The translations under genes were made by a program, and so were the position numbers. The notes below the pieces were generated by a model, which had not been told where the DNA came from, did not search any database, and saw only the letters and a program-made list of their open reading frames with translations. DNA of 64,000 nucleotides from Hydrocarboniclastica marina (GTDB lineage: Bacteria; Pseudomonadota; Gammaproteobacteria; Pseudomonadales; Oleiphilaceae): positions 372,001 through 436,000 of the forward strand of contig NZ_CP031093.1 of assembly GCF_004851605.1 (NCBI RefSeq), written 5' to 3'. Shown here piece after piece: positions 7,292 through 11,420 of this stretch (its first letter is position 1; the number at the start of each line of letters is the position of its first letter).

Positions 7292-8617
7292 TTAAGTCGT
7301 CGCCCGGTCGAACTGGCACTGGCCCGCAACATAGGTTTGCTTAATGCAGCGGTCGTCGCCCAGGATCATGAGGTCAAACAGAATATCAGCCAGCTTGGGG
7401 CGGGGGTGCTGCTTGAGCCTGAGCATCGGGGTCGCGGATGGGTCGAGCACGACAAAGTCGGCGTATTTGCCCGGCTCGAAGTTGCCGCTATCCGCGTCCT
7501 GATGGAGCACGCGGGCATTTCCCAGTGTACTCAGGTAAAACGCCTGGAACGGGCTCAGTGTCTGTCCCTGCAATTGGCAGACCTTGTAGGCTTCGGCCAT
7601 GGTCGCCAGCATCGAAAGGCTGGTCCCGGCGCCCACATCCGTGGCCAGGCCGACGTTAACGCCAGCGCCACGCGCGGCCTCAAAGTCAAACAGGCCGCTT
7701 CCAAGAAATGTGTTTGAGGTCGGGCAGAAAGCTATCCGGCTTCCGGATCGGTTCAACCTGTGGCGATCGTGTTCATTTATATGGACGCCATGGGCCAGCA
7801 CACTACGTTCGCCCAACAGCCCGTAATGCTCATACACATCAAGATAATCTTTACGTTCGGGATAAAGCTCGCAGGCGAAGTCAATCTCGGCATGGTTCTC
7901 CGCCCAGTGGGTCTGCATCAGCACACCGGGATTCTCCGCTACAAGCTTTCCCGCCAGCGACAGCTGTTCTGGACTTGAGGTGATAGCGAACCTCGGCGTC
8001 ACGGCGTAGCGTAAACGGTCCTTGCCGTGCCAGCGGTCGATCAGGGCCTGGCTAGCCTGACAGCTCCCGCTAGCCAGATCACACAGAGCCTGAGGGGCAT
8101 TGCGGTCCATCATTACCTTGCCGGTTGCGATGGCCATTCGGCGCGCCGCAGCTACGGTAAACAACGCATTAACCGATGTGGCATGGGACGTCGCGAACAC
8201 CAGGGCTGAAGTGGTGCCATGGGCCAGCATCATATCGACGAAAACCTCGGCCTGGCTGCTGGCCCAGGCAGCGTCTGCAAAGCGTGCTTCCGCCGGATAG
8301 GTATAGGTTTCCAGCCAGTCCAGGAGTTGCGAGCCGAAACTTGCGATGACTTGAAGCTGTGGCAGATGCACGTGGGTATCGATGAAGCCCGGTACGATCA
8401 GGGCTTCGGGCCAGTGTTCCACGGTCGCACCGGCCGGGAGTGAGGGGAGCAGACCGCTGGCGTGGCCGACCGCCAGAATCCGATCCTGGTCGACTATCAG
8501 AAGGCCGTCTTCGAAGAACTGATAACTTCCAGGTTCAGGCGCCGCTGTGCCTGGCTCATCGAGGAAGTGCAGTATCCGGCCTCGGTAGCCGCGAGTTTCA
8601 GTTTGGTTGTTTTTCAT
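7292..8617 (-). CDS. guaD: guanine deaminase
   Basis: 442 residues from the ATG at 8617 (E. coli GuaD is 439); a GTG at 8641 would add eight residues. It belongs to the amidohydrolase superfamily and hydrolyses guanine to xanthine plus ammonia in purine salvage and catabolism. The zinc motif THVHLPQL, GKVMMDRNAP, the SSPEQL segment, CPTSNTFLGSGLFD and GLATDVGAGTS all align with E. coli GuaD in order. It is a single gene, with no xanthine dehydrogenase or uric-acid genes nearby. An AANAANAA sequence lies just inside the start (8607-8614), a possible Hfq/Crc site. Confidence 0.95.
   Translation of the reverse strand: MKNNQTETRGYRGRILHFLDEPGTAAPEPGSYQFFEDGLLIVDQDRILAVGHASGLLPSLPAGATVEHWPEALIVPGFIDTHVHLPQLQVIASFGSQLLDWLETYTYPAEARFADAAWASSQAEVFVDMMLAHGTTSALVFATSHATSVNALFTVAAARRMAIATGKVMMDRNAPQALCDLASGSCQASQALIDRWHGKDRLRYAVTPRFAITSSPEQLSLAGKLVAENPGVLMQTHWAENHAEIDFACELYPERKDYLDVYEHYGLLGERSVLAHGVHINEHDRHRLNRSGSRIAFCPTSNTFLGSGLFDFEAARGAGVNVGLATDVGAGTSLSMLATMAEAYKVCQLQGQTLSPFQAFYLSTLGNARVLHQDADSGNFEPGKYADFVVLDPSATPMLRLKQHPRPKLADILFDLMILGDDRCIKQTYVAGQCQFDRATT
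8607..8614 (-). promoter_or_regulatory. possible Hfq/Crc catabolite-activity (CA) motif at guaD start
   Basis: On the minus strand AAAAACAA, which fits AANAANAA, directly follows the guaD start codon. Such A-rich motifs at translation starts are the known Hfq/Crc repression sites in Pseudomonas. A short A-rich codon run could arise by chance, so confidence is low; the presence of crc in this window makes it worth recording. Confidence 0.3.
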
Positions 8618-8807
8618 TACTGGACGCTTCTGGTGTGGCACATGCGGGGAGGCTTATACGGGAGAGTATACTGGCGGTTCAGGGGTTGAAAGCAAAGTGC
8701 GTGTATAGGTTTGAGCGTTTGGGGGCGATTGAGTTTTCTTGCCTTCTGAAAACGAGAAGTTGGAGAATTGCGGCCGTGTTGAGATTCAGGCTGGCACGGC
8801 AACGGCA

Positions 8808-8837
8808 ACTGCCACTGCCACTGCCACTGCCACTGCC
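8808..8837 (+). repeat. hexanucleotide microsatellite (ACTGCC)5
   Basis: Five perfect ACTGCC units immediately precede repeat copy A. A related array of five units precedes copy B. It lies in non-coding DNA. Confidence 0.9.
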
Positions 8838-9068
8838 AGGGCTTTCGTCCATCGCCTTTGGCGCTGACCGAGTCACTTCTTTGTCAGTAGCGACAAAGAA
8901 GTAACCAAGAAAACGCCACCCCCTTCCTGCCACTTGCTTCGCAAGCGGTTCGCTGTGCTTCTCGCAGGCTGGGGGCGTGCTCTAAACTCGCTTCGCTCAG
9001 ACAACGAGCCCGCTGATCCCCGGCCTGCTGCGATGCTCGCCTGTTCAGAGGGGCAGGGAGTGGAAGTC
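8838..9068 (+). repeat. structured intergenic repeat, copy A (forward)
   Basis: First of four copies of a unit of about 230 bp filling the gap between guaD and the AGCS gene. It contains a short hairpin CGCC-TTT-GGCG, a long hairpin at 8872-8905 (arm ACTTCTTTGTC, loop AGTAGC), a CTTGC-TTC-GCAAG hairpin and a conserved CTCGCTTCGCTCAGACAACG block. Relative to the other copies, the long stem here carries compensating changes at its top (GTC/GAC instead of GG/CC). Short open frames cross the unit on both strands but look like by-products of the repeat. Confidence 0.9.
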
Positions 9069-9114
9069 AGGTTGGGGTTTTTTGTGCTTGGCAGCGGCTG
9101 GGTTCGCATCTCTT

Positions 9115-9144
9115 ACTGCCACTGCCACTGCCACTGCCACTGCA
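9115..9144 (+). repeat. hexanucleotide microsatellite (ACTGCC)5, last unit imperfect
   Basis: Four perfect units and one final ACTGCA, immediately before repeat copy B and in the same position relative to the repeat as the array before copy A. Confidence 0.85.
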
Positions 9145-9150
9145 ACGGCC

Positions 9151-9381
9151 AGGGCTTTCGTCCATCGCCTTTGGCGCTGACCGAGTCACTTCTTTGGCAA
9201 TAGCACCAAAGAAGTAACCAAGAAAACGCCACCCCCTTCCTGCCGCTTGCTGTGCAAGCGGTTCGCTGTGCTTCTCGCAGGCCGGGGGTGGGCTCTAAAC
9301 TCGCTTCGCTCAGACAACGAGCCCACTGATCCCCGGCCTGCTGCGATGCTCGCCAGTTCAGAGGGGCAGGGAGTGGAAGTC
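9151..9381 (+). repeat. structured intergenic repeat, copy B (forward)
   Basis: Nearly identical to copy A and in the same orientation. The long hairpin at 9188-9215 has arm ACTTCTTTGG and an 8-nt loop. The CTTGC-TGT-GCAAG hairpin keeps its stem but changes the loop relative to copy A. The copy begins right after the second ACTGCC array. Confidence 0.9.
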
Positions 9382-9480
9382 GGCCAGGTGCCAGAGATCA
9401 GCTAAAGAAAAACAGGATCTAGCCTTTGTTGGCTCGAGTACCTGCCGAGCCTATAGCGGTCAACGCACCCAATCCTCAGG

Positions 9481-9715
9481 CAACTCCCGAACCCCCTCTA
9501 AGCTGTCGAGCACCGGAGCCGCGCGAAGATAAAGCGACCCCGTTGTCTGAGCGCAGCGAGTTTAGGGGGCGCCTTCGCGCGGCGAGGAGCGCAGAGGACC
9601 CCTCGGTACGAGGGGCAGCGCAGCGGGGTGGCACTTTCTTGGTTACTTCTTTGGTGCTATTGCCAAAGAAGTGACTCGGTCAGCGCCGTAGGCGATGGGC
9701 GAAACTCTTTGTCTT
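9481..9715 (-). repeat. structured intergenic repeat, copy C (inverted)
   Basis: Opposite orientation to A and B and closest in sequence to copy D. The long hairpin lies at 9645-9672 with the same arms as copy B. The short CGCC/GGCG hairpin has a different loop (TAC when read in the A/B orientation). The open frame crossing it, containing PLSERSEFRGRL, recurs in D because the DNA is repeated. Confidence 0.9.
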
Positions 9716-9788
9716 TAAGGCCCGAAGCCCGGCCCAAGGTACCAAGCACAAGGTCCAACCGGAAAAACCAAATGCACAAGCTACCGGC

Positions 9789-10020
9789 CAACTCCCAATC
9801 CCCTCTAAGCTGTCGAGCACCGGAGCCGCGCGAAGATCCAGCGACCCCGTTGTCTGAGCGCAGCGAGTTTAGGGGGCGCCTTCGCTCGGCGAGGAGCGCA
9901 GAGGACCCCTCGGAACGAGGGGCAGCGCAGCGGGGTGGCACTTTCTTGGTTACTTCTTTGGTGCTATTGCCAAAGAAGTGACTCGGTCGACGCCGAAGGC
10001 GGCGGACGAAAGCCTTGTCT
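9789..10020 (-). repeat. structured intergenic repeat, copy D (inverted)
   Basis: Direct repeat of copy C, ending about 50 bp before the AGCS stop codon. The long hairpin is at 9952-9979, and the short CGCC/GGCG hairpin has loop TTC in the A/B orientation. With C it forms an inverted pair relative to A and B, so the whole block could fold back on itself. Confidence 0.9.
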
Positions 10021-10070: not shown

Positions 10071-11420
10071 TCAGCGGGGGTTATCCGCAAAGTGCTCTTT
10101 AGTCAGCCGAACAATCACCGGACTCAACAACAACAAAGCCACCAAATTCGGCAACGCCATCAAAGCATTAAGCGTATCCGCCACCAACCAAACAAACCCC
10201 AGATGATCCTGCGCCATAGCTCCAACGGGTATCGCTACAATCCAGAGCACCCGGAAAGGTGCAATCGCTTTGATCCCAAACAGATACTCCACCGATTTCT
10301 CGCCATAAAACGACCACGCCAACAGCGTGGTAAAAGCGAATATCGCCAGCCCGAATGTCACCACATAGCCACCGAAGCCTGGCAGTGCCTCGTTAAAGGC
10401 CAGGGCGGACAGGGAGGCGCCGGTTTCGCCACTGGTCCAGGCGCCGGATACGATGATCACCAGGCCGGTAATGGTGCAGACGACAATCGTGTCGATGAAG
10501 GTGCCCAACATGGCGATCACGCCCTGGTGGACGGGGCTCTTGGTGCGCGCTGCAGCATGGGCGATGGGCGCACTGCCGAGCCCGGCCTCGTTGGAGAACA
10601 CCCCGCGGGCGACGCCGAACTGCAGGGCGGCCCATACCGCTGCGCCGGCGAAGCCACCTGTTGCGGCGGCAGGTGAAAAGGCATAGGTAAACACCAGGCC
10701 AAAGGCGGCCGGGATGCCGTCGGCGTTCAGGGCCAGGATGATGATTCCGCAAAGAACGTAGGTGATCGCCATCAGTGGCACCAGCTTCCCGGCGACGGTG
10801 CCGATGCGGGTAATGCCGCCAATCAGGACCATTGCGGCCAGCACGGCCATGACCAGGCCTGTTGCCAGGGGCGGAATGTTGAAGCTCGATTGCATGACAT
10901 CGGCAACGGAGTTGGACTGGACGGTATTGCCGATCCCGAAACCGGCAATGGCCGCAAAAATCGCGAATGTCGCGGCAAGCCAGCGCCACTTGGGGCCCAG
11001 GCCGTTGCGGATGTAGTACATGGGGCCGCCAACGTGATGGCCGTTCTCGTCCACCTCACGGTACTTCACGGCACAGACGGCCTCGCCGTATTTGGTGGCC
11101 ATGCCCACCAGCGCGGTCATCCACATCCAGAAGAGCGCTCCGGGCCCGCCCAGGAAAACGGCAGTGGCCACACCGGCGATATTACCGGTGCCGATGGTCG
11201 CTGACAGCGCGGTCATCAGGGCATTGAACGGAGTGATGTCGCCTTTTTCAGTGCTCAAACGGCCCCGCCAGAGCATGCGAAAGCCGTAAGCGGTCTTACG
11301 GATGGGGATCAGGCCGAGGCGGAGCTGCAGGTAAAGGCCGGTGCCGAGGATAACGACCAGCATGGGGACGCCCCAAACCAGGCCATTTACTGTGCTGATG
11401 ATTTCGGTGAGTGCATCCAT
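10071..11420 (-). CDS. AGCS family alanine/glycine:sodium symporter
   Basis: A 449-residue inner-membrane transporter with about ten to eleven hydrophobic segments. It carries the family signatures [11 protein letters not shown] (residues ~78-88), the [16 protein letters not shown] stretch and GGPMYYI. AGCS carriers bring in alanine, glycine or related amino acids with sodium. AGGGAG lies upstream of the ATG. It is monocistronic and ends next to the repeat cluster. The exact substrate cannot be read from the sequence. Confidence 0.93.

Follow-up and report, generated by a model that had tools for sequence, protein, structure and literature searches.

Why are hairpins kept, copy after copy, in a gap between two genes while the bases that form them change? 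The question is raised by a 64,000-nt stretch of the Hydrocarboniclastica marina genome (contig NZ_CP031093.1, positions 372,001–436,000; hereafter the window), in which 1,429 bp between an amidohydrolase open reading frame (ORF; 7292–8641, minus strand) and a Na/Ala symporter ORF (10071–11420, minus strand) hold four copies of a structured repeat unit. An earlier note, written from the sequence alone, had placed four such copies in a gene-free gap of ~1.4 kb and offered selection on the secondary structure of RNA or of single-stranded DNA as the simplest explanation. All four copies are present, the stems and loops quoted for them were located, and five scanned ORFs of the gap (78–136 aa) matched no Pfam family at E≤0.001. 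The observation is confirmed and is larger in extent than described: a pseudoknot with a mirror/triplex relation, the assignment of a strand, an inverted arrangement of two unit types and dispersal across genomes all go beyond the note, whose own evidence (one stem change and differences between loops) is insufficient by itself.

With a probability of roughly 0.6, we regard the units as a mobile element that is non-autonomous and whose RNA fold is under selection. Where neighboring units are seen, this dispersed element would take the form of an inverted pair of related, differing units, I and II, with each type doubled in the window version. Each unit would specify an RNA of ~233 nt, read from the strand opposite to that with the sequence GNNACTT...AAGTNNCC (hereafter the top strand). 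From 5′ to 3′, this RNA would consist of a branched arm domain closed by CCCC/GGGG, an H-type pseudoknot and an outer hairpin, P0. Within the pseudoknot, the loop of a hairpin stem of about 11–14 bp (P1) would pair with a segment 5′ of P1 to give a second helix of about 4–6 bp (P2), and the strand linking P2′ to P1, made of pyrimidines (UUUCUU in the window), would run along the P1 purine arm, forming U.A-U and C+.G-C triples. The fold would serve the spread or persistence of the element, its recognizer presumably not being encoded alongside, and insertions would survive mainly between the ends of converging genes.

In the window, units A (8840–9072, with its outer end at 8840) and B (9153–9385) are direct repeats of each other (94% over 267 nt), with minus as the proposed RNA strand; units C (9472–9704) and D (9779–10013) are likewise direct repeats (91% over 240 nt), with plus as the proposed RNA strand. 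A/B are inverted against C/D (arms of 80–86 nt, 86–94% complementary), and the arrangement reads I+ I+ II− II−: A is of type I, C and D are of type II, and B, by within-genome alignment and covariation, joins a type I body to a type II loop, which we take to be a product of recombination or gene conversion. The P1 hairpin spans 8872–8905 in A (8872–8883 paired with 8894–8905), 9185–9218 in B (9185–9196 with 9207–9218), 9642–9675 in C (9642–9653 with 9664–9675) and 9949–9982 in D (9949–9960 with 9971–9982). P0 spans 8845–8871 in A, where it includes the CGCC/GGCG stem of the earlier note, and 9983–10009 in D, where one two-sided change, A-U to G-C, sets it apart from the other copies. The CTTGC/GCAAG stem, previously ascribed to all copies, occurs in A and B only; C and D have another hairpin there.

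A nucleotide search for genomic copies (BLASTN), as the earlier note had proposed, gave 14 units (type I, eight; type II, six), 77–79% alike across types and grouped in five clusters. Besides the window cluster, which lies between codirectional ORFs, these read II+ II+ I− I− at 2218.7 kb, II+ I− I− at 3043.8 kb and II+ I−, preceded by a 39-nt remnant, at 3630.3 kb, with a lone type I unit at 104.7 kb. The flanking ORFs converge at three of the five clusters and are codirectional at two, the window among these. The remnant outside the 3630-kb cluster is that of a type II unit (L033, 5227–5265).

Aligned in the proposed RNA sense, the 14 units yielded a consensus fold (RNAalifold) of 62 pairs, 14 of them with two-sided changes. 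With the pseudoknot included (63 pairs), 98.6% of the 882 cells were paired and 75 carried two-sided changes, compared to 31.2±3.9 after shuffling, a number reached in none of 500 shuffles. Partners slid by 1–3 columns gave at most 15 two-sided changes, a comparison biased in favor of the 63-pair structure, which was derived from the same 14 sequences. Further pair types numbered 24, below every shuffle (28.8). Within-genome covariation mostly reflects the I/II split, with changes within types as well (columns 64/100, 69/95 and 211/225). The change in both arms of the long stem, cited earlier as evidence, is present (GTC/GAC in seven of eight type I units, GGC/CC in all six type II units and in copy B); it amounts to one difference among 14 units and is thus weak evidence taken alone, the better evidence coming from the unit as a whole and from its relatives elsewhere. 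A long-stem mismatch was seen in one of the 14, the type II unit at 3043.8 kb. Covariation, strong within this genome and across genomes, supports the proposed selection on secondary structure.

The core recurs widely, as the earlier note had surmised for other proteobacteria. A pattern of the stem with its 3′ continuation, applied to genome contigs, returned at least 120 stretches, including chance coding matches (in Bacteroidota and others). Among the matches listed, GTTACTTCTTTG-loop-CAAAGAAGTAACC-AAGAAA occurred in Thioalkalivibrio, Zoogloea, Denitromonas, Pelomonas, Rhodanobacteraceae and Lysobacteraceae, and also in Desulfuromonadales, Ignavibacteriae, Candidatus Soleaferrea, Oscillospiraceae/Clostridia and Candidatus Chisholmbacteria; several of these records are metagenome bins, so that the phylum given for any one of them may be incorrect. 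Searched with a covariance model built on the P1 hairpin and its flanks (R1; cut-off E≤0.001 per genome), 64 of 369 genomes in the window's class gave a match, as did 5 of 245 genomes in the class of Soleaferrea and 10 of 192 in the phylum of Chisholmbacteria, often in many copies. R1 E-values are rough; among 30 returned loci in each case, a strict finder confirmed the motif in 28 for the class, 27 for Clostridia and 14 for Patescibacteria. Directed to 40 places, the finder recovered the motif at 28. Of 23 misses listed, many could be read as variants whose P1 base differs, and some were doubtful.

No Rfam family matched the pseudoknot core, either in the window units (E≤1) or in relatives (gathering scores for 17 loci, E≤0.1 for 20 and E≤0.05 for eight). 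An MIR1437 match in the window (38 bits, gathering score 168) was dismissed as a match to a long hairpin. Distant BLASTN searches in two combinations, the type I unit against plasmids and the type II unit against phages, returned no match, and six viral contigs carried the core pattern without the flanking core; a plasmid- or phage-borne element was accordingly rejected.

The loop of P1 pairs with a segment beyond the stem. In the window's genome, both types form a six-pair P2, GUGGCG/CGCUAC in type I (in A, 8887–8919 on the minus strand, 8887–8892 with 8914–8919) and UGGCAC/GUGCUA in type II (in C, 9629–9659, 9629–9634 with 9654–9659; in D, 9936–9966, 9936–9941 with 9961–9966; plus strand). 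In copy B, the type II loop on the type I body still pairs, via G.U. Across genomes, P2 was found in 84 of 113 distinct units under a register-aware rule, compared to a mean of 15.5 and a maximum of 25 in 500 sets with shuffled partners, and in 106 of 134 distinct units with a wider register. The longest complementary run between loop and downstream segment averaged 4.2 nt over 45 distinct combinations, including the window genome's own copies, vs. 2.2 nt when shuffled (maximum 2.8 of 500). Counting on a MAFFT alignment instead left 51% of helix 2 cells paired, with at least as many pair types in 495 of 500 shuffles and at least as many two-sided pairs in 466; this count is weak because the P2 register varies, and the register-aware count was used in its place.

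The segment joining P1 to P2′ repeats the P1 purine arm in mirror order and changes along with P1. Examples of arm and third strand, read on the top strand, are CAAAGAAG/AAGAAA, CAAAGAAAG/AAAGAAA, CAAAGAAAAG/AAAAGAAA, CAAGAAAG/AAAGAA, CAAAGAGAAG/AAGAGAAA, CAAAAGAAAG/AAAGAAAA, CAAGAAAAG/AAAAGAA and CAAAAAG/AAAAA, among others. In the window, the proposed third strand lies at 8907–8912 in A (RNA UUUCUU) and 9220–9225 in B, both minus, and, again as UUUCUU, at 9635–9640 in C and 9942–9947 in D, both plus. Over 21 P1 types, mirror identity was 0.865, vs. a permuted mean of 0.69 and a maximum of 0.777 in 2000 permutations; for this, 233 of 468 hairpin readings were kept for a purine-rich start (AA) after the hairpin, with no mirror filter.

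The unit list behind the register-aware P2, wobble, folding, neighbor, type, ANGGA and end-repeat counts did require at least 60% mirror identity, so that the 21-type permutation is the fair test of the mirror relation and base-by-base counts are not independent of it. In that pre-filtered set, bases of the top-strand purine arm faced the same base in the third strand in 694 of 741 (A) and 111 of 120 (G) cases, C faced A 21 times, G seven times and C three times out of 31, and the one T faced C; the C positions of the arm presumably lie mostly at its loop end. Simple direct repetition as the origin of the third strand was rejected: among 33 asymmetric combinations from the same pre-filtered set, the mirror reading was better in 26, tied in six and worse in one, and in the 21-type set, which had no mirror filter, mean identity was 0.90 for mirror vs. 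0.77 for direct order (commonest third strand per P1 type).

Mirror repeats are required by base triples and are not generated by duplication or inversion, and the relation thus fits a triple helix. Read on the top strand, it corresponds to a purine motif (A.A-T, G.G-C); read on the bottom strand, it corresponds to the pyrimidine motif (U.A-U, C+.G-C), which is the well-known triplex type in RNA. There, the third strand is parallel to the purine arm, and each of its bases matches the one it faces (U over A, C over G). In a single case (L232), a T-A inversion in the purine arm stands opposite a G of the pyrimidine strand, presumably the textbook G.T-A triplet. The helices, P2 and the mirror relation with its co-change can be read directly from the sequences, as can the one-sided wobbles in P2 and at the P1 base, the dispersal and the inverted pairing of two types; the third strand would occupy the P1 major groove, and the RNA fold is knotted and probably triple-stranded.

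Units also occur in a recurrent arrangement. Those lying 100–1500 nt apart faced inward in 29 of 32 cases and never stood back to back; an earlier tally of 31 of 34 had included two spacings, −29 and 77 nt, that probably represent one hairpin read twice and were excluded. Neighboring units were of unlike P1/P2 type in 29 of 32 rows, among which are four for clusters of the window's genome; once duplicates of five loci are removed, the count is 24 of 27. In Thioalkalivibrio, the entire pair (~790 bp) is itself repeated as one unit, with 38 matches in one genome (G182) and inverted ends of ~35 bp. Terminal inverted repeats, as in a miniature inverted-repeat transposable element, are hence present in Thioalkalivibrio, the window's genome having only the inverted units themselves. 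A selfish element is consistent with the repetition, patchy distribution, homogeneity within genomes and terminal inverted repeats, and with the fact that no gene is linked to the units. At the center of the Thioalkalivibrio copies L375–L393, between both units, we noticed a further hairpin-like repeat (GTAGGGTGCGTTGAGCGCAGCGAAACGCACC).

One gene common to eleven genomes (L141, L395–L404) adjoins the element in both orders of unit types, and the P1 base there alternates in a compensatory manner (TTAC/GTAA, TGAC/GTCA, GTAC/GTAC, GCAC/GTGC). That structure is kept beside a shared gene would be compatible with a role in the host (or with gene conversion). In a twelfth Thioalkalivibrio genome (L394, about 1230–1290), the middle of the element is lost and its ends are kept, as if by internal deletion between the inverted halves.

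Such a host role could be that of a 3′-end element: converging transcripts would enter the far unit in RNA orientation, and the triplex pseudoknot would block 3′-5′ exonucleases or read-through in a REP-like manner. Besides the compensatory alternatives of P1 beside the Thioalkalivibrio gene, the genomic neighborhood speaks for it, since the ORFs flanking 141 units converge in 68 cases, are codirectional in 65 and diverge in only eight (longest-ORF calls rather than annotation, over loci that were not deduplicated and include many from Soleaferrea), and convergent ORFs flank three of the five clusters in the window's genome. In codirectional gaps, however, orientation is nearly balanced, at 37 vs. 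28 units; the window has no promoter-like site, and terminator-like sites number one, vs. a shuffled mean of 2.3. Nor is there a common neighbor: among 273 neighboring ORFs, no protein family recurred beyond a cluster of four (up to 12 Soleaferrea loci entered the clustering), which also led us to reject a gene carried with the element. The other genomes of the window's family lack the repeated pattern. We therefore consider a 3′-end element possible, if on the unlikely side. A 1.6-kb pair in another genome (L235 in G242) encloses a 317-aa ORF that falls outside any neighbor-ORF cluster listed.

Alternatively, the element might act as DNA, the single-stranded top strand folding into a purine-motif intrastrand triplex that acts on replication or recombination or is recognized by a transposase, comparable to the PIT/TMECO repeats of Escherichia coli. 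The mirror relation fits such a triplex equally well, and loop lengths on the top strand suit a classical pseudoknot. As far as the accessible part of the PIT/TMECO study describes it, TMECO repeats, which also occur as inverted A+B pairs, form such triplexes in vitro, while in vivo footprinting gave no support for a stable triplex (PMC4666352).

In P2 and at the third P1 pair, however, wobbles are confined to the other strand. In P2, 17 cells read G.U on the bottom strand (A.C on the top strand) and none the reverse (134 distinct units, 106 of them with P2); with shuffled partners, 6.0 bottom-strand and 3.4 top-strand wobbles arose, compared to 15 and 0 observed in the same set. At the third P1 pair of 79 distinct helices, 16 wobbles fell on the bottom strand and none on the top strand, with a finder that tolerated top-strand wobbles only and scored bottom-strand ones as mismatches. 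The bottom strand also folded at lower energy in 93 of 126 units (mean −115.6 vs. −109.8 kcal/mol), compared to 42 of 100 flanking controls, and single-sequence z-scores were −3.2 (A) and −2.9 (C) on the RNA strand vs. −2.0 and −2.3 on the other. Wobbles and folding energies thus agree in direction, although the nominal p value of 1e-10 is optimistic for related units, and matches to the TwoAYGGAY RNA family (L094, L325) lie on the bottom strand as well. One-sided P2 wobbles make RNA from the strand opposite to that of A and B the likely agent; we infer that RNA, not single-stranded DNA, folds, and hold a DNA-level role to be unlikely.

TwoAYGGAY (Rfam RF01731; Weinberg et al. 2010, PMC2864571) matched one locus (L094, 115–243, plus strand) adjoining the 5′ side of the pseudoknot on the same strand, and both inverted units of another (L325; 688–758, minus, and 982–1052, plus) about 60 nt 5′ of the pseudoknot. 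Given this position, TwoAYGGAY is the arm domain of some members; the family differs from the element in that the L325 match ends before the pseudoknot and the L094 match before P1. Both loci scored above the gathering threshold and L315 below it (39.7 vs. 43), and the other relatives scanned gave no match. A CsrA-sink role has been proposed for TwoAYGGAY in the accessible part of PMC4333381, and the element might by extension be a mobile sponge that takes up CsrA or other RNA-binding proteins, with ANGGA hairpin loops on its arm domain. ANGGA hairpins were present on the RNA strand of 29 of 126 units (two in 16), compared to 7 and 0 on the other strand and to 5 and 3 of 99 flanking controls (two strands). 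Together with the TwoAYGGAY matches, these loops hint independently at the strand. They are missing, however, from 97 of the 126 units and from all four window units, which also gave no TwoAYGGAY match at E≤1, and we judge a sponge very unlikely. An element of the REPIN/BIME type moved by a RAYT (Y1, REP-associated tyrosine transposase) would share the inverted two-type dimers, intergenic location and multiple copies; it is barely plausible and was rejected, since 7 of 20 element-bearing genomes (several of them incomplete assemblies) lack a Y1_Tnp (PF01797) match and the sole Y1 domain of the window's genome (G000:C1, 2529174–2529539) is remote from all units.

Several observations weigh against a mobile element with a selected RNA fold. 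Movement and transcript alike are presumed from sequence. No transposase or other partner was identified (among the 273 neighboring ORFs, with an unlinked search for Y1 only), and direct repeats at the Thioalkalivibrio ends had a mean longest length of 1.0 vs. 1.6 with shuffled partners (14 of 20 copies, both ends located). The pair is not universal: the strict finder saw one unit only in 180 of 218 loci, explained in part by short stretches, contig ends and diverged partners that were missed (e.g. in L325), while true singles exist, such as that at 104.7 kb. Among 163 genomes of the window's own family, the hairpin pattern was repeated in the window's genome alone (13 matches), with a single match in six others, which marks the element as dispensable. 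The strand split in codirectional gaps implies that read-through transcription is not specially favored. Regarding the fold, a six-base loop, found in 94 of 137 distinct units, leaves the RNA strand a tight 1–2 nt to span the P2 minor groove; 3–4 nt are available in the window's genome. Finally, P1 as a whole showed 20 bottom-strand and 10 top-strand wobbles, seven of the latter at positions 10–14 near the loop, where the finder could lengthen arms by G-T.

More tentatively, these repeats could represent an unrecognized mobile RNA class of at least five bacterial phyla, built on a telomerase-type triple-helix pseudoknot whose arm domains can be exchanged, some of them already filed as TwoAYGGAY, and moved as inverted two-type pairs by machinery that is possibly RNA-dependent. 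In the literature searched, with subscription journals and supplements largely outside it, no such element was named; one of the 250 candidates counted in the accessible part of PMC11109978 may be the same. Repeats of this appearance are easily overlooked or mis-annotated as short proteins. A large repeat family that keeps a pseudoknot and a co-evolving third strand offers a concrete structure for testing, links three hitherto orphan observations (the triplex repeats, TwoAYGGAY and the dispersed repeats) and raises the question of what recognizes the fold across so many phyla.

Hexamer arrays of ACTGCC adjoin the outer ends of A (8808–8838, 5.2 copies) and B (9115–9151, 6.2 copies). Arrays also adjoin type I outer ends at L031 (5537–5556 and 5838–5863) and L033 (5892–5911), and the hexamer differs by locus (ACTGCC, GCCGTG, CAGTTG, GCTTTA).

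Among known systems, telomerase RNA and SAM-II are H-type pseudoknots with a major-groove triplex; along with SAM-V, they belong to the single-locus RNAs or riboswitches that have a ligand or protein partner. SAM-V likewise combines an H-type pseudoknot with a major-groove triplex, according to the accessible part of PMC6061858. The topology and triples proposed for the element are the same as in these three, whereas the element is a dispersed repeat and a ligand is not known. REP/REPIN/BIME elements are inverted dimers. The element shares this trait and a tail-to-tail intergenic bias, described for Pseudomonas fluorescens repeats (accessible part of PMC2718517), but differs in its ~233-nt unit, compared to 20–40 bp for REP (accessible part of PMC3733652), its pseudoknot and the lack of a RAYT link. 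In the accessible part of Narunsky et al. (2024, PMC11109978), which counts 250 mobile or repeat sequence candidates, MRSC-65-2 is likewise a multi-copy structured motif of diverse phyla, presumed selfish, but forms a single long stem with a UYCCGG repeat, unlike the element.

Nearest in design are the PIT/TMECO repeats. The accessible part of Holder et al. (2015, PMC4666352) describes them as intergenic, multi-copy E. coli sequences in which a mirrored purine strand comes after a pyrimidine-arm hairpin; five MG1655 sites hold two copies in inverted orientation, one of type A and one of type B in every case, and the repeats are G/C-rich, ~35 nt long, present in 262 proteobacterial genomes and treated as DNA. 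The element has the same hairpin, mirrored purine strand and inverted two-type pairs, but differs in sequence and size: its P1 and third strand are A/T-rich and do not follow the PIT/TMECO pattern CCCTCNCCC-N3-6-GGGNGAGGG-N3-GGGNGAGGG. PIT/TMECO repeats lack a large arm domain, the accessible part of the study mentions no loop pseudoknot (PMC4666352), and by eye we saw none at two E. coli sites. In E. coli K-12, we observed triplex repeats as an inverted two-type pair at L407 (about 348–431) and L408 (about 299–401). Sharing of the inverted two-type pair suggests a common architectural reason.

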